Of a stretch of DNA of 64,000 nt, positions 22,230 through 39,150 are shown one piece after another. This DNA is from Verrucomicrobiota bacterium (GTDB taxonomy: Bacteria > Verrucomicrobiota > Verrucomicrobiia > Verrucomicrobiales > Verrucomicrobiaceae). Every line of letters begins with the position of its first letter. The first letter of the stretch is position 1. Where the stretch lies: contig JANYCZ010000013.1 of assembly GCA_025360015.1 (NCBI GenBank), positions 1 through 64,000 on the forward strand, in the 5' to 3' direction. The position numbers and the translations under genes are program-made. Below the pieces are notes generated by a model. The model was not told the DNA's origin, ran no database searches, and saw only the letters and a program-made list of their open reading frames with translations.

Positions 22230-24878
22230 CTACTGGCCTCCAGCAGCCACAGGAGGCAAGAGGGTTCCAACGGCTCCAGGTCCGGCGACCGGATCAGTCG
22301 GTGTTGTTCCACCGCTGACTGGCTTGATCCGCTGACCCGAGGGGTCAATCAAATGGGCCGTCACAAAGATCATCAGGTTGCGCTTGTAGTGCTGCTCGGA
22401 CTCGCTCTTGAACAGGCGGCCGATGAAGGGGAGATCGCCAAGAATCGGCACTTTGTCCTGAACGTCCTGTACGTCTTCGCGGATCAGGCCGCCCAGAGCG
22501 ACCGTCTGGCCATCCCAGATCGAAACGCCGGTAGTCACCTTGCGCACCGAGAACACAGGCTGGTTGATGATGTTGGGCGTGATCAGACGCTCAGGCTGAG
22601 TGAGCGGAACATAGCCGGTGGCTCCCACCGTTGTGGCAGCGGCTTGACCGAGCTGAATTGGCAGTACCGACTGGCTCGAAGGGGAAAGAATCGGAGAGCC
22701 ATAGTTGATGAAACCGTCAAACTCCACCACCTCAGGAGCGAGGGTAAGTTCAATAGTGTTGCCATCAGCACCCACCGTGGGTTCAGCTTCAAGACGCACA
22801 CCCGTCTGGCGCATTTCGAAGGCCGTCGGAGTCGTCGGTGTGGCAATCTGGGTGCCGCCGCCACCGCCACCACCCAGATTAAGACCACCACCGCCCTGTG
22901 GCAGACGCGGAGGATCAAATTCTGTTGGGTAAATAAACTCACGCGTGACTTCCATGGTGGCACGCGTGCCGCTCTTCGTCGTCACACTCGGGGCGCTCAT
23001 CAAGTCCACGCCTTTTTTCTGGCTCAGACCACGAATCACGTTCTGGAACTGAGGATTGGAGAAAATACCAGCCGTGGAGAAAATGCCGGGAGCCACAGAG
23101 GTCGTGCTGGTGGTTGAGCCCGTGGTCAGCAGGTTGTCAATGCTGCTGTTGCTGATGGCATAACCACCACTGCGATTCCCTGCAGTGACCGGCCCGCCAC
23201 CATAAGGAAATGGAGCGGTGGTACCGCTTGGCACCGGACCAGCAAAAGCCCCATTAACAGGGATAGGCGGGAACACCTGCAGCAGAGGCCCCCCCGCAGG
23301 ATTGGAAACGAACTGCGCCGGAGTCGTGTAATTCGATTGGAATGGATAGTTGCCGGGGAGATAAGCATTGCCATTGCCCGTGCTGCCGCCACCCACGAAG
23401 ACGTTGCTGTTCAAGCCCACTCCACCGAGGAGCCAGTCAAAACCGAGCTCTTCTGTATTTTTCTGAGTGACTTCCACAAACTTGGAGGTGATGACCACCA
23501 TCTTGGGCGCCGATTTTGTGATGGACTCCACATAGGCTTCCACCAAATCAAGATTAGGCTGGGTGTTTCTGACCACCAGCTGAGAGTTCGCAGGATTGTA
23601 GCTCGCCGAAGCTCCTTCAGGGAAGACGATCCCCGCTGCTTCAAGAATCTGCCGGGCCGATCTTCTTGTGATCAGGCCACTCCCGCCCGCCGGTGCCGCG
23701 CCACCAGCCGCAAAAGGATCTGCCGCAGGTGCCGCCCCCCCAGCAGGTGCCGCATCCCCACCACCTGAACTCAAGAAGTCAGGCGGGACACGGTAGCTCT
23801 TGGTATACTGCTCACTGGCATTTTCGGAAAGTGGCACTACTAGAACAGCGTGGGCTTCCACCTTATACTTCATCTGCGCAAGCTCCGTCACGTAACGAAG
23901 GGCTTCGGACATCGGCACATCTTTCAAGTCCAAGCTGATCGAAGCATTACTTGGCGCATCGCCCGTGCGAAGGATGATATTCACCCCCTTAACTCCACCG
24001 CTGTCCGTGAAGTTGTCCAAGTCACGGCTTTTGACACGTAGGTACTCAATGGCCTCATCAATGGTGGCCCCCTGGAACTGCACTGTCGGGAAAATGATTT
24101 TGTTCATTTTCTCGGTCAGATACGCACCAGGGCTGCGTCCCACACCATAGTCAAAGGTGACAGTCTGCCCCTGCACCGGCACCTTGTCCTCCCAGGACTC
24201 CGCCACCTGGGCCAGCATTTTGGCACGCTGGTGATCGTAGGCGGTTTTGAAATAGGCCATGCGTTTGCGCTCCGCATTCTCCATGCCGCGGCGCGCGGCG
24301 CTGTTGTAGGGATCCGTCCGCAGGACATCCTGATACTGCGCAATGGCGGCATCGTAGTTGCCAATTTCAACAGAGCTGTTTCCCAGCAGGAGCCCAGCTT
24401 GAACTTTACCCACGTTGGTCACGTGCTCGGCGGTGAGGGCAGGCGGCCAGCGGTCTGGATCATCCAGCTGCTTCAAAAAAGTCACGGCACCTTTGTGTCC
24501 TGGAATGTACACAATGGCACCTTCCAGCAATTGACGGGCCTCTTTGTAATTGCCTGCCTTGGCACGTTCCTGGGCCACCACGACACTGCAATCCGCATAC
24601 TTGAGCTGGGCCAGATTCAGCCAGTCACGCGTCAATGGTGCATTGGGCAGGGCGTCGATAGCTGTCTTGTATGAGCCAAGTGCACCTTCGTAGTCACCCT
24701 CACTGAACAGTTTGTCACCACGATCCATGGCCGTGCGCGCATCTTCAATGCGGGCATAACGACGTGCGATTTCGCGATTAGCCATTCCTGAGACGGAGCT
24801 TTGGGCCATGGCAGAAGGCGCGGCCGCAGTCAGGACGAGAAGAGAAAGGTTGAAGACCAGACGGGAGTGATGGGTCAT
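22230..24878 (-). CDS. Type IV pilus/T2SS-like secretin, Amuc_1098 family
   Basis: 882 residues. A signal peptide (ends PSAMAQ) is followed by TPR-like helices (~30-220; DKLFSEGDYEGALGSYKTA), an STN/N0-type domain (~285-360; FQGATIDEAIEYLRVKSRD), and a second N-domain (~415-500) that starts after a VPPDFLSSGGG linker and contains QILEAAGIVFPEGASASYN. The secretin core lies ~610-850: LMSAPSVTTKSGTRATMEV, RLEAEPTVGADGNTIELTL, WDGQTVALGGLIRED and the VPILGDLPFIGRLF signature. It should form a multimeric outer-membrane pore for a pilus or secretion system. It is the last of five genes ordered as in Akkermansia Amuc_1102 to Amuc_1098. A homologous module recurs three times in the protein at 33.9-36.6 kb. 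Confidence 0.92.
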   Translation of the reverse strand: MTHHSRLVFNLSLLVLTAAAPSAMAQSSVSGMANREIARRYARIEDARTAMDRGDKLFSEGDYEGALGSYKTAIDALPNAPLTRDWLNLAQLKYADCSVVVAQERAKAGNYKEARQLLEGAIVYIPGHKGAVTFLKQLDDPDRWPPALTAEHVTNVGKVQAGLLLGNSSVEIGNYDAAIAQYQDVLRTDPYNSAARRGMENAERKRMAYFKTAYDHQRAKMLAQVAESWEDKVPVQGQTVTFDYGVGRSPGAYLTEKMNKIIFPTVQFQGATIDEAIEYLRVKSRDLDNFTDSGGVKGVNIILRTGDAPSNASISLDLKDVPMSEALRYVTELAQMKYKVEAHAVLVVPLSENASEQYTKSYRVPPDFLSSGGGDAAPAGGAAPAADPFAAGGAAPAGGSGLITRRSARQILEAAGIVFPEGASASYNPANSQLVVRNTQPNLDLVEAYVESITKSAPKMVVITSKFVEVTQKNTEELGFDWLLGGVGLNSNVFVGGGSTGNGNAYLPGNYPFQSNYTTPAQFVSNPAGGPLLQVFPPIPVNGAFAGPVPSGTTAPFPYGGGPVTAGNRSGGYAISNSSIDNLLTTGSTTSTTSVAPGIFSTAGIFSNPQFQNVIRGLSQKKGVDLMSAPSVTTKSGTRATMEVTREFIYPTEFDPPRLPQGGGGLNLGGGGGGGTQIATPTTPTAFEMRQTGVRLEAEPTVGADGNTIELTLAPEVVEFDGFINYGSPILSPSSQSVLPIQLGQAAATTVGATGYVPLTQPERLITPNIINQPVFSVRKVTTGVSIWDGQTVALGGLIREDVQDVQDKVPILGDLPFIGRLFKSESEQHYKRNLMIFVTAHLIDPSGQRIKPVSGGTTPTDPVAGPGAVGTLLPPVAAGGQ

Positions 24879-31693: not shown

Positions 31694-32050
31694 CATCGGC
31701 AAGCGCCGAATAAATGAGACATCGCAGAGATTTTCAGAATCAATCTCTGCGGTGTGCATCTTCCCTTTCGCTTCAGACTCGGCGTTCTCTCCAAATCTCA
31801 GCGGTGCAAAATGAGTGACCCCATAAGAGAACAGATTCAATCTCTGCCCCCTCTGCCGCTTTGCCCCTGTGCGGCAAACCGAAGCTCCCCAGGCCCCTCA
31901 TGCTGGAAACGCGTTGGGTGAATCGCCAGACCTCCGCTGCGGTCAAAAAACGTCCGCCACCCACAAGCCGTGGTCAAGAATCGTCCGCCCCTGAAGACGT
32001 CCCCCTTGCCCATTGACGCCGCTCTCTTTCCACATCCAGTGATCTCAATC
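31694..32050 (+). other. Intergenic region with palindromic hairpin
   Basis: This ~355-base stretch holds no supported gene. CGCAGAGATT (31723-31732) pairs perfectly with AATCTCTGCG (31742-31751) to give a 10-bp stem with a 9-nt loop and no T tract. A related TCAATCTCTGCC motif recurs near 31837. It probably contains the 3' end of the YdjY transcript and the promoter of the cyclase-repeat gene. Confidence 0.4.
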
Positions 32051-33214
32051 ATGAAAATTTCCACCTTTCTTCTCACTCTCGCACTCGGCACCACCGCAGC
32101 CTTCCCGCAGGCCGCCACCCAGGCCTCGCGCAATGAATCCCTCAAGCAGGAGCTCCGCCTCGGCGTCGAGCGCGGCCTCAATTTCCTCCGCGCCAAGCAA
32201 AACCCCACCACCGGCCAGTGGGGCGAAGCCGAGCCCGTCGCCATTACCGCCCTCGGCATCATCGGCTTCATGCTTGATCCCAATCGCAAGCCCTCCGATC
32301 CCGTCCCCGCTGAGGTCGAAAAAGCCACCAAGTTTCTCATCAGCAATGCCCGGCCCGATGGCGGCATCTTCACCAAAGCCCGTGGCAACTACAACACCGC
32401 CGTCGCCCTCACCGCCCTTCTCCTCAACAACAAGCCCGAAAACGAAGAGGTCATGCTCAAAGCACGCCGCTACCTCGTGCGCTGCCAGGTGGACCTCGAC
32501 GAAAAAGGCAAGCAGGACAACCCCCTCGACGGCGGCATCGGCTACGGCGACGACAAAGGCATGCACGCCGACATGTCCAATCTCACCTTCGGCCTCGAAG
32601 CCCTCTACTACTCCCAGTCCCTCCTCGCAGACAAAGGCGACGCCGCCAAAAACGAGCCGCAGTTGAACGTCGCAGCCGCTATTGACTTCATCCAGCGCTG
32701 CCAGAACCGCCCGGAGAGCAACAAATCCAGTTGGGTCAGCAAAGACCCCGACGACGCCGGCGGCTTCATCTACAACCCCACCGAAACCCGCGGTGCCAAA
32801 GTCACGAACCCAGATGGCAGCGTCGCCCTCCGCAGCTACGGCAGCATCAGCTACGCCGGCCTCCTCAGCTTCATCTACGCCGGTGTCGATAAAGACGACC
32901 CCCGTGTCAAAGCCGTCATTGAATGGCTTCAAAACCATTACAACGCCGACGAAAACCCCGGCCTCGGCACCGCCGGCCTCTACTACTACTACCAGACCAT
33001 GAGCAAGGCCCTCAGCATCGCCAAGATCGACTACATCAAGACCAAAGACGGCAAGCTCATCGACTGGCGCAAAGACATCACCGAAAAACTCCTCAGCCTC
33101 CAAAAAGGCGACGGCTCCTGGTCCAACACCGAAGGCCGCTGGATGGAATCCGACCCCGTCCTCACCACCACCTACATCCTCATGGCCCTCGGCCGCATCC
33201 ATCAGACGCTGTAG
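32051..33214 (+). CDS. Exported prenyltransferase/squalene-oxidase-repeat protein
   Basis: 387 residues from the ATG at 32051, giving a clean signal peptide (ISTFLLTLALGTTAAFPQA); the open frame upstream is not needed. The mature protein has repeated alpha-barrel helices of the terpenoid-cyclase/prenyltransferase type: GLNFLRAKQNPTTGQWGE, AVALTALLLNN, DADMSNLTFGLEAL-like and the final GDGSWSNTEGRWMESDPVL with TTTYILMALGR. The catalytic DXDD of squalene cyclases is not seen, so it is probably a binding or structural protein in the periplasm rather than a cyclase. A strong terminator follows 43 bases after the stop. Confidence 0.85.
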   Translation: MKISTFLLTLALGTTAAFPQAATQASRNESLKQELRLGVERGLNFLRAKQNPTTGQWGEAEPVAITALGIIGFMLDPNRKPSDPVPAEVEKATKFLISNARPDGGIFTKARGNYNTAVALTALLLNNKPENEEVMLKARRYLVRCQVDLDEKGKQDNPLDGGIGYGDDKGMHADMSNLTFGLEALYYSQSLLADKGDAAKNEPQLNVAAAIDFIQRCQNRPESNKSSWVSKDPDDAGGFIYNPTETRGAKVTNPDGSVALRSYGSISYAGLLSFIYAGVDKDDPRVKAVIEWLQNHYNADENPGLGTAGLYYYYQTMSKALSIAKIDYIKTKDGKLIDWRKDITEKLLSLQKGDGSWSNTEGRWMESDPVLTTTYILMALGRIHQTL

Positions 33215-33876: not shown

Positions 33877-34566
33877 ATGCCTCTCCGCATCCGCAGCCTC
33901 ATTCTGCAACTCACGCTCGCATGCTGCACGGTCCTGGATGCGGCGGTGCCGGAGCTTCGCACCCAGGTCTTCAAATTCCCCTCTGATTACGCCAGCCGGG
34001 GCTGGTCCTACGGAGACTCAGATCCACCCGGAGATCCATTTGCGGTTCCCGTTCCGCCAAGAAAGATCGTCAGAGAATATCTTGAAAAGCAGGGCGTCGT
34101 TTTCGCCAAAGGTGCCAGCGCCACGTATAATCCGCTCAGCGAGCTGCTTTCAGTCACAAACACAGAGCCCAACCTCGTTCTTGTCGAAGGGATTGCGGCA
34201 TCCTTCACACGGCAGTCTCCCGCAGCAATAACCTGCGTCGTCACCATCGTCGAAGGCCCTGGAGAGCTCATTCGCCAGGCCAATGCCGCCGCTTCACGGA
34301 CGATGAGCGCAGCTCAGGAACTCACCACGCTGCTCGGGTATGCAAAGAATCCCGGCTCCAATGTCCGCGTGGTGGGAGATGCCTTTCTCGAAACCAAATC
34401 CGGCGCCCATGCCACGGCTGCCGCCATACTTGACCATGCCAGCACAGCCAGTCTTGAAATGGACGCTCAAAGCCACGCTCCGTCGCTCAGCAAAGGCTTC
34501 AGACTGGCCTGCGGCTGGAGTATGAGCCATCTCTCGACACCGGTGGCAGCACCATCTCATCTGTGA
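33877..34566 (+). CDS. Secretin-module protein, 5' part before a frameshift
   Basis: 229 codons from the ATG at 33877 (signal peptide ILQLTLACCTVLDA); only about the first 200 read naturally. The N-domain (REYLEKQGVVFAKGASATYN, then VTNTEPNLVLVEG) closely resembles the second N-domain of the secretin at 22230. Homology continues through SGAHATAAAILDHAS and then breaks near 34475-34500. From there the minus-one frame carries the expected LRLEYEPSLDTGG segment and runs into the ORF at 34563. The two ORFs are therefore one gene of ~899 codons (33877-36575) disrupted by a single-base indel, or a sequencing error. Confidence 0.75.
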   Translation: MPLRIRSLILQLTLACCTVLDAAVPELRTQVFKFPSDYASRGWSYGDSDPPGDPFAVPVPPRKIVREYLEKQGVVFAKGASATYNPLSELLSVTNTEPNLVLVEGIAASFTRQSPAAITCVVTIVEGPGELIRQANAAASRTMSAAQELTTLLGYAKNPGSNVRVVGDAFLETKSGAHATAAAILDHASTASLEMDAQSHAPSLSKGFRLACGWSMSHLSTPVAAPSHL

Positions 34567-36575
34567 TCTCCCTGGATCTGCAGCCTGCGCCGCCTCGTGA
34601 TCGCCAGGTCAGCATCACAGAACCGAAACGTGGTGGTACGGCGGAGTTTCCGGTGACCGACATACCCGGTCTACACTTTTCCACCCAAATCTCCTGCCCG
34701 GCCGGCAGAACCAGGCTCATCGGCATCAGCAAACCCGTCGGCACCTCCAAACAGAACAACGATACCCTCTGGGCCGCCTTTCTGACCTTCAACGTGCGCA
34801 GCATCGCGCCGCTCCTCGCCTCAAAATCTGCCGCCTCTTCCCACATCATTCAAACATCCGGAGGCATGCATACCGCGGCGTTCAGTGTGCCCGAGGGCTT
34901 GCTGGACTTCTCCATGGAGGATGCGAAAACATTCTTCTCCGGGCCGCGAAAACCCGTGCAGCCGCAGGCATGGCTCGAATCCTCTGGCATCAAACCCTCA
35001 CCAGGAGCCACCGCCACACATGCCAAGGGCGTCCTGACCATCGTCAATACACCCGACAACGTCGAGCGCGTTGCCTCCTTGATTGATGATGCCCTCCACC
35101 ATCGGCCCCGGACGGCAGCCTTCACCCTTCATACCCTGCAAGCACCCGCCGCGTTTCTCCGAGATCTGGCGCATCGGACCTCTGCCACCGCCGATGATGC
35201 CGCCATGCTCGCAGCCGTGGAAGCCGCCGTCACTCGTGGTGAGGCCCGTTTCATCGATACCCACTTTCTCGCAACCAAACCGGCGTCAATCACCACGCAC
35301 GAATCCATACGCGAGCATGCGTATCTGTCCAGATTTGGCACCGATGCCAAAGGACAGCCGCAACTCACCTTCGCCATGCGTCCGGTGGGTTCCATCCTCA
35401 AGCTCGACCCTGTTGTCGATACCAACGGCCGCATGCTGCAAATCAAGCTGGAGCATGAACTGCACTCCGCGCCCCCTGAACAACGCCGCGAGCAGTTTCG
35501 AGATCCCGCATCCAGCAAGCCCTTCGAAATGCCCGTGGTCGATTTCCACTCCTCAAGGACGGTCACCGACATCCCGATGACCAGTGGTGGCACCAGGCTC
35601 ATATCCCTCAATCGTCCCACCAGCCACACCGAGGGAGATGTGCTCTGGGCCACGTTTATGAAATACGAACTCGTCAGCCATCTGCCGAAAGTCGAGCCAC
35701 CACCTCTCGAAAAGAAAAAGGCAGATCCCGCTGATCCCAAAGCCTGGAACACACGGGTGTATCATCTGCCGCCCGATTTCACCGCCAGCGGAGGAGATAC
35801 AGCTGAAGGAGCCGCCATGGATGGAAACAAACTAGTGCAAAGATTTCTCGAAGGGGCCGGCGCTCTCTTCCCTGAAGGAGCTTCAGTCTCATACACTCTC
35901 GCAGCAAATACGATGATCGTCAGAAACACGAATGAGAACCTCGCCATCGTGGATGCCTATGTTGAATCCATCACCAAATTATCGCCGAAAATCGTCGCTT
36001 GCACCATGCACGTCCTCCAGGGCCCCGGCCCAATGCTGCGCCGCATTGCCGCTCAAGCTGCCAACAAGAGCGAACACCGCAGTGAATTCGATGAAATGCT
36101 CGCCGCCATAAAGGCAGGCAGCGTGCAGTCTCTCAACACCTCCCGAATCAAAACCAAATCTGGCACCCGCGCCACGGCCAGACAGATCGTCGAGCATGCC
36201 TCCATCACCGGCGTGAGCATCAATGACCGAGGCGAGCCCGTGTTTGAACAAAAGATGCGCGAAGTCGGCCTCCGCTTTGAATTTGAACCCACCGTCGGCG
36301 CAGACGGCGTCACCATGGAGCTCACCCTCTCCCCCGAATTCCACACCGCTGAACCCTTCGAACATCGCGAACACATCATCGATACCCAGGGCCGCCGCCT
36401 CGAATTCCCCCTCACCGATTACTTCACCACCAAGCTCACCACCGGCATCACCATCCCCGACGGCAGCGCCCGCCTCCTCTCCCTATACAAACCCACCGGC
36501 AAACCCGAGTTCGAAAAAGAAGACATCCTCCAGGCCATCTTCATCACCTGCGACTTGTTACGCGCAGGCGAGTAG
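34563..36575 (+). CDS. Secretin-module protein, 3' part (modules 1 end, 2 and 3)
   Basis: 670 codons with no own signal peptide or natural start (GTG at 34563); it continues the gene begun at 33877 in another frame. Read as one protein it has three tandem modules of ~290 residues, each with a short PPDF-like entry, a secretin N-domain and a secretin-core-like beta segment. Module 3 is clearest: YHLPPDFTASGG, QRFLEGAGALFPEGASVSY, KTKSGTRATARQIVEHAS, LRFEFEPTVGADGVTMELTL and TTGITIPDGSARLLSLYKP. Compare the secretin at 22230. The TPR head and the final VPILGDLPFIGRLF pore signature are missing, so it is unlikely to form a normal channel. Function is unknown. Confidence 0.78.
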   Translation: MISLDLQPAPPRDRQVSITEPKRGGTAEFPVTDIPGLHFSTQISCPAGRTRLIGISKPVGTSKQNNDTLWAAFLTFNVRSIAPLLASKSAASSHIIQTSGGMHTAAFSVPEGLLDFSMEDAKTFFSGPRKPVQPQAWLESSGIKPSPGATATHAKGVLTIVNTPDNVERVASLIDDALHHRPRTAAFTLHTLQAPAAFLRDLAHRTSATADDAAMLAAVEAAVTRGEARFIDTHFLATKPASITTHESIREHAYLSRFGTDAKGQPQLTFAMRPVGSILKLDPVVDTNGRMLQIKLEHELHSAPPEQRREQFRDPASSKPFEMPVVDFHSSRTVTDIPMTSGGTRLISLNRPTSHTEGDVLWATFMKYELVSHLPKVEPPPLEKKKADPADPKAWNTRVYHLPPDFTASGGDTAEGAAMDGNKLVQRFLEGAGALFPEGASVSYTLAANTMIVRNTNENLAIVDAYVESITKLSPKIVACTMHVLQGPGPMLRRIAAQAANKSEHRSEFDEMLAAIKAGSVQSLNTSRIKTKSGTRATARQIVEHASITGVSINDRGEPVFEQKMREVGLRFEFEPTVGADGVTMELTLSPEFHTAEPFEHREHIIDTQGRRLEFPLTDYFTTKLTTGITIPDGSARLLSLYKPTGKPEFEKEDILQAIFITCDLLRAGE

Positions 36576-36729: not shown

Positions 36730-39150
36730 TCACTCCACAAACTCCGTATAATGCCTCCTTCGCGGCGGCTCCGTCACCAGCGCCTTCTGCTTCCAGAACG
36801 TCGCCTGCTGCGCATCCTTCTCGCACCCGACACCTTCCAGATAGCATTGCGAAAGGCTCTTCATCGCCTCCACCACCCCCTCCTCAGCAGCGCCTTTGAT
36901 CGCCGCAAATCCCGTTCTCCGCTCCTTCGTCGTCTGCCCATGATTTAAGAGCACCATCCCCGCCAGATTCTTCGCCGGCGGCAGTTTGTCCACCACGCGT
37001 GACAGCGTGTCATACACATCCTGCCACAGCGCCGGATCATGCTCCGCTTTGCGCCACAGCAGATGCGCCGCCAGGTAAGCCTCCAGCGGATGCTTTGACC
37101 GGCTCATAAACGCCAGCACCAGCGCCCCTGCCTTCTCAATATCCTGCGGCACCCCGCGCCCCTGAAACAAAGCCTCCGCATAGTAGAAGCGCGCATCACG
37201 CCGCTTCCCCGCCTCAAACGCCTTCTGATACAGCGCCAAGCTCCGCACCGGATCGCGCGGGCAGCCATAACCCGCCGCGTACAGATGCCCCTCCAGCAGC
37301 ATCGCAGACACACTGCCATGCTCCGCCAGTTGATGCGCCGGCTCCGCCCACGCCGCATCCAGCCACTGCCCCTTCATGAACAACTGCCGCGCCATGCGAT
37401 CACTCAGCGCATCCGCAAACGGCTGCCAAAAAGTCTCCTGCGGAAATTCATAAACCGCATTCATCAGCACCGTCAGCGCTGGCTTGAAATCCTCCGTCGC
37501 TTCTAAACCGCGCATCTGTTCCAGGATCTCCAGCCGCGCCTCCTCCACCTGCTCCTCATGCGTGAAAGCAGGCTTCATTTCCCGCAACGACGCCGCACTC
37601 ACAAACTGCTCCTTCGTCGGCAGCAGTTCGCTCACCTCGATCTTGTCACTCGCATCCGTGATGCGCCAGCGGTCCGCCACATCCTGCTGCACCCGGCACA
37701 CCAGCACGCCCTTGCCCCGGGCGATGCGCACACCGCGCTGCACTTCGAACTGAAACGGCTGCGTCACCTTGATGAGGTCAAACGTCTCCACCTCCGCCTG
37801 CGCTCCCGCCATCACGCTGATGCGCCGCAGCGGCCACCGCGCCCGCAGTTCCTCCTCCAGCCGCAGCAGCACCTCCATCGGCGCATGGTCCAGCATGAAA
37901 AACTTCCCCTGCCCCGCCGCCACATGATCCAGCAGCGTCGCCACAGACACCTCATTCCACGACCTCACATACCCCGCCACCCGCTCCAGCGCCTCCTGCC
38001 TCGCCGAGAGCTTGCCCGCCGCCCGCTTGTCTCCAAATCGACGCGCCTTCTCAAACGCCGCCAGCGCCAGCTTGATGTCCGCCGCCGTGCCATTGCCGAA
38101 CTCGTAGCGCTCCCCCAGCGGCATCCACGCGGATGCCTCCCCCAGCTTCGCCGCCAGTTGCAGTTGCTTAAATGCACCCTCCGAGTAGCGCGCCGGATTC
38201 TCCGGATCATCCACCACACTCACAAAATCACGCAGCGCCTCGCGTCGCCCTCCCTCGACCGCCTGTTGCAGTAGAAACACCACCTCCCCGCCAAACTGAT
38301 CCGAAGCCCGCAGCGCCAGCCCCAGCTCATGCATCGCCGCCAGATCGCCCGTTTCAGCCAGCGACATCAGCACCTGCGCAGCCAGCAGCGGCGCGCCCAA
38401 CCGCAGCAGATCTTCGCACGCCTTTACAGTGGCTTCCGGCGAAAGCTCGGGCGCAGCCACCACCGGCTGCGTCACCACGTCCCCTTTCGCAGCCGAAATC
38501 TGGTCCAGATGATACGGCCAGTAAACAATGCCCGCAATCATCGCCCCACACACCAGCAGTCCCATCAGCAGCAGCGAAGACGACTCCTCCTCATCCTGCG
38601 GCAGTTTCGTTTCCGCAGCCACTTCCACACTCGGCGGCGGCAGGTTTGCAGGCGGCAAAGCCATAGGCATCTCCATTTCCGGCGCAGAGACCACCGGCAA
38701 AATCACCTCCCCCACTCGCACTCCACCACGCGGCTTCAAAGAAATCGGCTTCAGCAAATAGCCCCGCTTGCTGACTCGCGGCCCCGTCGGTGCTCCTTCA
38801 GTTCCAGCCTCACTCGCTTCCACCACCGCCTCTTCCAAAGGCTCTTCTCCCTCAGCCAGATCCACATCAAACACCTCGCCACCAATCCCAAATTTGAACG
38901 GCACATCCACCTCCAACTCGCTCGAAATCACCCCGTTCACCGAGAACTGCGCCGCCACAAACACACCAATGATCTGAAACGTCCGCTCCCCCGTCCGGTA
39001 CAGCACGCAGTGCCGCGGCAGAATGCTCACGCCCTCAAATGTGACATCACACTCCGGGCCGCAGCCCAGCGTCAGCGACGCATGCAGCGGGCACGAAATC
39101 CGGTGCTCACCCTCTTCAGTGCGCAATGTCAAAACCGTCAGGGCCATCAC
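36730..39150 (-). CDS. FHA-like and SEL1/TPR-repeat membrane protein
   Basis: 806 residues. The first ~100 resemble a degenerate FHA domain (LTLGCGPECDVTFEG, ILPRHCVLYRTGERTFQIIG, FSVNG), which normally reads phosphothreonine. A Pro/Glu-rich linker leads to one membrane helix near 192-212 (LLLMGLLVCGAMIAGIVYW). The extracytoplasmic part has SEL1/TPR-like helical repeats: ~255-380 (LASEMHELGLALRA-type, WMPLGERYEFGNGTAADIK) and ~590-790 (GHLYAAGYGCPRDPVRSLAL, YYAEALFQGRGVPQDIEKA, LSQCYLEGVGCEKDAQQA). It is the last gene of the MoxR operon, 63 bases after the DUF4175 gene. A signal-dependent scaffold role is inferred. Confidence 0.8.
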   Translation of the reverse strand: MMALTVLTLRTEEGEHRISCPLHASLTLGCGPECDVTFEGVSILPRHCVLYRTGERTFQIIGVFVAAQFSVNGVISSELEVDVPFKFGIGGEVFDVDLAEGEEPLEEAVVEASEAGTEGAPTGPRVSKRGYLLKPISLKPRGGVRVGEVILPVVSAPEMEMPMALPPANLPPPSVEVAAETKLPQDEEESSSLLLMGLLVCGAMIAGIVYWPYHLDQISAAKGDVVTQPVVAAPELSPEATVKACEDLLRLGAPLLAAQVLMSLAETGDLAAMHELGLALRASDQFGGEVVFLLQQAVEGGRREALRDFVSVVDDPENPARYSEGAFKQLQLAAKLGEASAWMPLGERYEFGNGTAADIKLALAAFEKARRFGDKRAAGKLSARQEALERVAGYVRSWNEVSVATLLDHVAAGQGKFFMLDHAPMEVLLRLEEELRARWPLRRISVMAGAQAEVETFDLIKVTQPFQFEVQRGVRIARGKGVLVCRVQQDVADRWRITDASDKIEVSELLPTKEQFVSAASLREMKPAFTHEEQVEEARLEILEQMRGLEATEDFKPALTVLMNAVYEFPQETFWQPFADALSDRMARQLFMKGQWLDAAWAEPAHQLAEHGSVSAMLLEGHLYAAGYGCPRDPVRSLALYQKAFEAGKRRDARFYYAEALFQGRGVPQDIEKAGALVLAFMSRSKHPLEAYLAAHLLWRKAEHDPALWQDVYDTLSRVVDKLPPAKNLAGMVLLNHGQTTKERRTGFAAIKGAAEEGVVEAMKSLSQCYLEGVGCEKDAQQATFWKQKALVTEPPRRRHYTEFVE

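Follow-up and report, generated by a model that had tools for sequence, protein, structure and literature searches.

Three tandem secretin-derived modules that lack the pore parts, encoded by a frameshifted gene of a Verrucomicrobiota bacterium

Secretins are known as large multimeric pores. GspD, PilQ, InvG and phage pIV each carry one core per chain and form multimeric outer-membrane pores, whose pore parts are the gate, contributed by long insertions in the core, the lip, and a hairpin that crosses the membrane. In the 64,000-nucleotide stretch of Verrucomicrobiota DNA analysed here (the window), a pore-forming relative of these proteins is encoded on the minus strand at 22230-24878. This Amuc_1098-type type IV pilus secretin scores 988.6 bits against NF042912, the NCBIfam model of the Amuc_1098 family, where the equivalog cut-off is 750 bits, and 110.1 bits against PF00263. 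An initial annotation had placed such a secretin 9 kb from a gene for three tandem secretin-like modules, and the NF042912 score bears out that assignment. The annotation knew of no described system with this architecture, and this agrees with our search, which found no description of tandem secretin cores in those parts of the open-access literature that it reached.

The gene lies on the plus strand at 33877-36575, as delimited by open reading frames, translation and profile, and is read in two frames. The first has an in-frame ATG at 33877 and a stop at 34566, and the second runs from about 34476 to a stop at 36575. Against a 905-position profile of 24 rows, one of which is the window's own long frame, 33886-34482 corresponds to positions 5-213 and 34476-36572 to positions 212-905. 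Because positions 213 and 212 meet at 34476-34482, the gene appears to contain a single frame change there and to have lost no module. A signal peptide, recognized by eye from a hydrophobic N-terminus with an Ala-rich end (33877-33945, end approximate), is followed by three modules of about 280 residues: module 1 at 34036-34829, split over both frames (34036-34479 plus 34470-34829 on profile A4), module 2 at 34878-35723, placed by the profile, BLASTP to module 3 and a quick tree, and module 3 at 35760-36569. Module 2 matches module 3 in BLASTP at E 2e-31 and the N-part of module 1 does so at E 2e-23. The frameshifted, three-module gene that had been proposed is thus confirmed by the profile and by E-values far beyond chance, and the motifs cited for it (EGASASYN in the secretin, KGASATYN and EGASVSY in the modules) are all present in the translations. 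A full-length product of this interrupted copy is probably absent. Copies in three related genomes are also broken, with the break near profile position 213 in the window, near 725 in G029, near 741 in G010, whose copy lies at a contig end, and somewhere from 155 to 822 in G036, which indicates either that loss of the gene is not rare or that these are assembly errors. We considered programmed frameshifting and judge it unlikely, since the breaks are scattered and most homologues are open.

The window protein was compared with four domain libraries, Pfam and NCBIfam with both frames and PHROGs and PADLOC with the long frame only, and the Amuc_1098 model of NCBIfam alone was significant. The two frames match it at E 1.9e-23 and 2.4e-12 (82.5 and 45.7 bits), short of the 750-bit equivalog score. 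In Pfam, neither frame matches PF00263 at E <= 1; a two-module relative does pass the cut-off of that model (33.1 versus 27.5 bits). The long frame has no match in PHROGs or PADLOC, so nothing there favours a phage or defence reading. Module 3 matches the secretin at 22230-24878 in BLASTP at E 8e-17 through two common blocks, with 52% identity over 61 residues of the N-domain and 69% over 29 residues of the core, and a module HMM finds collinear pieces at secretin residues 407-473 (88 bits), 614-655 (weak, 10 bits) and 684-717 (31 bits). Profile alignment with hhalign joins modules and secretin in one collinear run of 241 columns (99.8%, E 1.3e-29) that spans the last N-domain and the core up to the strand before the lip; a second, more diverse set of 21 module rows, four of them common to the first set, gives E 3.1e-27. 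The initial annotation had described each unit as repeating the entry, the N-domain and a core-like beta segment of this secretin. The repeat itself stands, while "core-like segment" proves too modest, because the module is a nearly whole secretin core, late strands included, minus its pore parts.

Predicted structure leads to the same place. The AlphaFold model of module 3 (with 52 modules) reaches pLDDT 92.8 and pTM 0.80. Judged by title, every one of ranks 1-39 in a Foldseek search with it is a secretin or a chain from a complex that contains one (best E 3e-9); 38 PDB chains fall at E <= 0.001, and TM-scores to the query are 0.29-0.40 over ranks 1-38. VIA returns only secretins or chains of secretin-bearing complexes, again by title, in rows 1-28, with Z from 14.1 to 9.7. 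The best of these rows is a loose superposition of 202 residues (Z 14.1, rmsd 8.1 A; 22 A in another row); the core alone aligns over 143 residues at 4.1 A with Z 13.2, and the N-domain alone finds XcpQ N-domains with Z 6.4-6.6. A PDB search by sequence alone yielded three chains, all secretins, at weak E-values of 0.047-0.34. The secretin N-domain fold that the annotation had named as a test of its proposal is therefore found in module 3, as is the full arrangement of N-domain plus core (hhalign E 1.3e-29; VIA Z 14.1). Together, hhalign, Foldseek and VIA support the secretin ancestry that had been suggested, and it is almost certain that the modules derive from an Amuc_1098-type secretin, namely from its core and last N-domain.

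Alignments find no TPR head, upstream N-domains, long core insertions or lip in the window protein, in line with the earlier observation that head and lip are missing. Neither the HMM nor hhalign finds a module counterpart for secretin residues 474-613 or for the Gly-rich stretch before residue 684, and in the alignments a short loop takes the place of the lip motif near the C-terminus. Module proteins start with a probable signal peptide, and their hairpin appears less hydrophobic overall than that of the secretin. The hairpin region holds 29% charged residues plus His in 52 modules against 8% in 10 secretins, and its mean hydropathy is -0.60 against +0.20, for stretches that differ in length. 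In the first hairpin tip strand the charged residues plus His are about equal (26% in modules, 24% in secretins), with hydropathy at -0.45 in modules versus +0.15 in secretins and aromatics also lower in modules. From these sequence features we infer that the module protein would be unable to form an outer-membrane pore, and we think it likely that it is soluble rather than pore-forming.

Homologues with the same three-module order, which the annotation had also set as a test, occur intact in relatives. Of the 48 genomes of the genus, 47 match the query and one does not; a long homologue, defined by a match that covers 400 or more of 695 residues, is found among the matches listed in at least 20 genomes, sometimes in tandem, and the matches listed for 27 further genomes are shorter and mostly of the secretin N-domain kind. 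The 82 stretches of DNA that we chose for their matches (100 stretches in all, with 18 more) contain 32 complete three-module ORFs, 31 two-module ORFs, a count that includes the window's second frame and L177, which looks like a worn three-module gene, and 18 one-module ORFs; of these 18, L178:3691 and L181:1726 also contain part of a second module, and L197, at 280 aa, looks like a fragment. A lenient home-made signal-peptide rule is passed by 31 of the 32 three-module ORFs. One-module genes stand in adjacent pairs at four loci (L165, L166, L168 and L159, where a contig end cuts the second gene). Across the order, hits to a module profile at E <= 1e-25 came from 51 of 288 genomes, spread over 15 of 50 genera, when up to eight candidates per genome were scored. 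Core-only ORFs of 225-294 aa occur in a different family of the same order, f2, and are paired at 4 of the 6 loci covered there. Outside the order, the matches of a phylum-wide search (58 of 387 genomes) fell mostly at profile positions 87-222; the ORFs concerned, about 900-1150 aa long, we take for ordinary secretins. The window's own genome also encodes a second Amuc_1098-type secretin (L017:8196-10889 on contig C33, 897 aa, 55% identical to the window's) and, on contig C60, a 3380-aa ORF (L016:4145-14287) with two Amuc_1098-type N-region copies, the first behind what by eye is a TPR-like head, in which the module HMM found no secretin core. G040, G029 and G036 have further long ORFs (1881-3261 aa) in which the Amuc_1098-type N-domain is matched once or twice.

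The modules appear to have diverged long ago. Our quick tree covers 118 of 163 modules (the three-module set was halved) and leaves 39 of its 115 inner branches open. Six labels, for positions a, b and c of three-module proteins, positions a and b of two-module proteins, and single modules, need 10 changes on this tree versus 73 in shuffles, with the window's two complete modules and L177 labelled as two-module rows. The window's modules 2 and 3 group with the second and third modules of three-module proteins. Since modules group by position, we take the triplication to be old and its units to have since diverged; support for the deeper branching order is poor.

A functionless, decaying secretin duplicate would fit the interrupted gene in the window, the broken copies in G029, G010 and G036 and the patchy distribution. 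Such decay is very improbable as a general account, given the 32 complete three-module ORFs, the old positional groups in the tree, and dN/dS values of 0.24-0.40 in six pairs. Four of these pairs compare relatives with one another (0.24-0.35; the broken G029 copy, through its long frame, takes part in two), and the other two pair the window's long frame with two relatives (0.40). A second alternative has the protein dock on the Amuc_1098 secretin as an adaptor or decoy, so that it tunes or plugs the type IV pilus; ring, decoy and adaptor had all been put forward as possibilities in the initial annotation. The module N-domain is close kin of that secretin's, and the window gene sits near the pilus secretin cluster, with a copy about 8-15 kb from the secretin there and in several relatives. 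However, paralogues occur at many other places, many of them on other contigs, and 28 of the 48 genus genomes have no long homologue among the matches listed, although most have secretin-type matches. Nothing ties the module family to the pilus, and we consider docking on the secretin unlikely.

A third alternative is that the three modules together make one small outer-membrane beta-barrel with a narrow monomeric pore, a single-chain mini-secretin. The full-length model of an intact 913-aa homologue with three modules has a pTM of 0.80 (80 residues fall below pLDDT 50), and after the 28 secretin rows the rest of its VIA output consists mostly of single-chain outer-membrane barrels, among them BrkA, CymA, OmpG and NalP, which align to modules 2-3 at about residues 409-876. 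Yet these barrels reach Z of only 4.0-5.3, below the value of 8 under which VIA warns of a mere common arrangement, and the hairpin region has a more polar make-up than in the secretin. Single-chain outer-membrane barrels also usually end in F, W or Y, and 0 of the 24 profile rows do so. We regard a monomeric pore as quite unlikely. The same pTM hints that each module has a fixed position relative to the others; read from pTM alone, side-by-side packing of the modules is a reasonably probable prediction.

The surroundings of module genes hint at signalling or envelope roles through M56, sigma-factor and VIT-domain links. At L175:6311-9000, a BlaR1-type M56 protease carries a secretin-like core and N-region where its sensor would be, and a BlaI-type repressor gene (PF03965) adjoins the fusion; L168 has an M56 gene near two one-module genes, and in L263 an M56 protein contains part of an N-domain and matches STN below the threshold. 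Genes for an ECF sigma factor and an RskA-type anti-sigma factor lie directly upstream of one three-module gene, in L062. These M56 and sigma-factor links amount to a handful of loci among the 100 stretches, and the window frames have no Pfam match to the M56 peptidase family PF05569. VIT-domain proteins of about 1050-1100 aa adjoin core-only secretin-like genes (L254:5189-9846, L261:2450-6531 and L265:1349-5951). The one from G150 was matched in 3 of 11 genomes (G150, G160 and G133), always beside core-only modules, with SLBB above its cut-off in G150 only; it had no match in G139, G145 and G154, which carry core-only modules. A link from these proteins to the window was rejected, as a search of five genus genomes, among them G000, gave no match to the G150 protein. 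The window gene is itself followed by a minus-strand gene (36730-39150) that encodes Sel1 repeats and matches FHA in Pfam below the threshold, of a kind found at most five genes from module genes in 11 genomes, which we read as local synteny, and is preceded on the plus strand by a gene (31970-33214) resembling the squalene-hopene-cyclase C-terminus (PF13243, 29.4 bits, cut-off 26.1). Sulfatase neighbours (a cluster of 11 ORFs in 10 genomes, among 561 neighbours) were taken for the base rate, because those ten genomes have at least 50-88 scored sulfatase matches each.

Overall, we cautiously favour a soluble periplasmic scaffold or sensor made of joined, poreless secretin protomers. The three modules would pack together as covalently joined protomers into a beta-rich periplasmic scaffold, an arc or a small ring, whose task would be to bind a partner in the envelope or to sense the envelope's state. 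The protomers may first have worked as separate neighbours, as the paired one-module genes and the pTM of the 913-aa model suggest, and only later been fused. With the pore parts missing, a scaffold or sensor is the likeliest role, though as a specific function it is tentative; the sensing idea comes from relatives that carry the module where the sensor domain of BlaR1-type M56 proteins sits. A covalent mini-secretin, in which the fused poreless protomers close into a small pseudo-threefold beta structure serving as envelope scaffold or sensor, is doubtful.

A poreless family with one, two or three cores per chain would make the secretin core a reusable envelope building block, and would offer a covalent object of few protomers for studying how secretin protomers pack. 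Among described systems, the Amuc_1098 family is the closest: its last N-domain and core strands are collinear with the modules and a similar linker precedes the N-domain, whereas its TPR head, upstream N-domains, core insertions and lip have no place in the window protein, which has three copies per chain. GspD, PilQ, InvG and phage pIV (PDB 9k8v, 5wq8, 6w6m, 6dv3 and 7ofh) are alike in module fold, with Z of 13.2-14.1, but have the pore elements that the module proteins lack. The BlaR1-type M56/BlaI system resembles the family through the relative at L175, with its module in the sensor position, and differs from the window protein in the M56 domain, for which the latter has no match.
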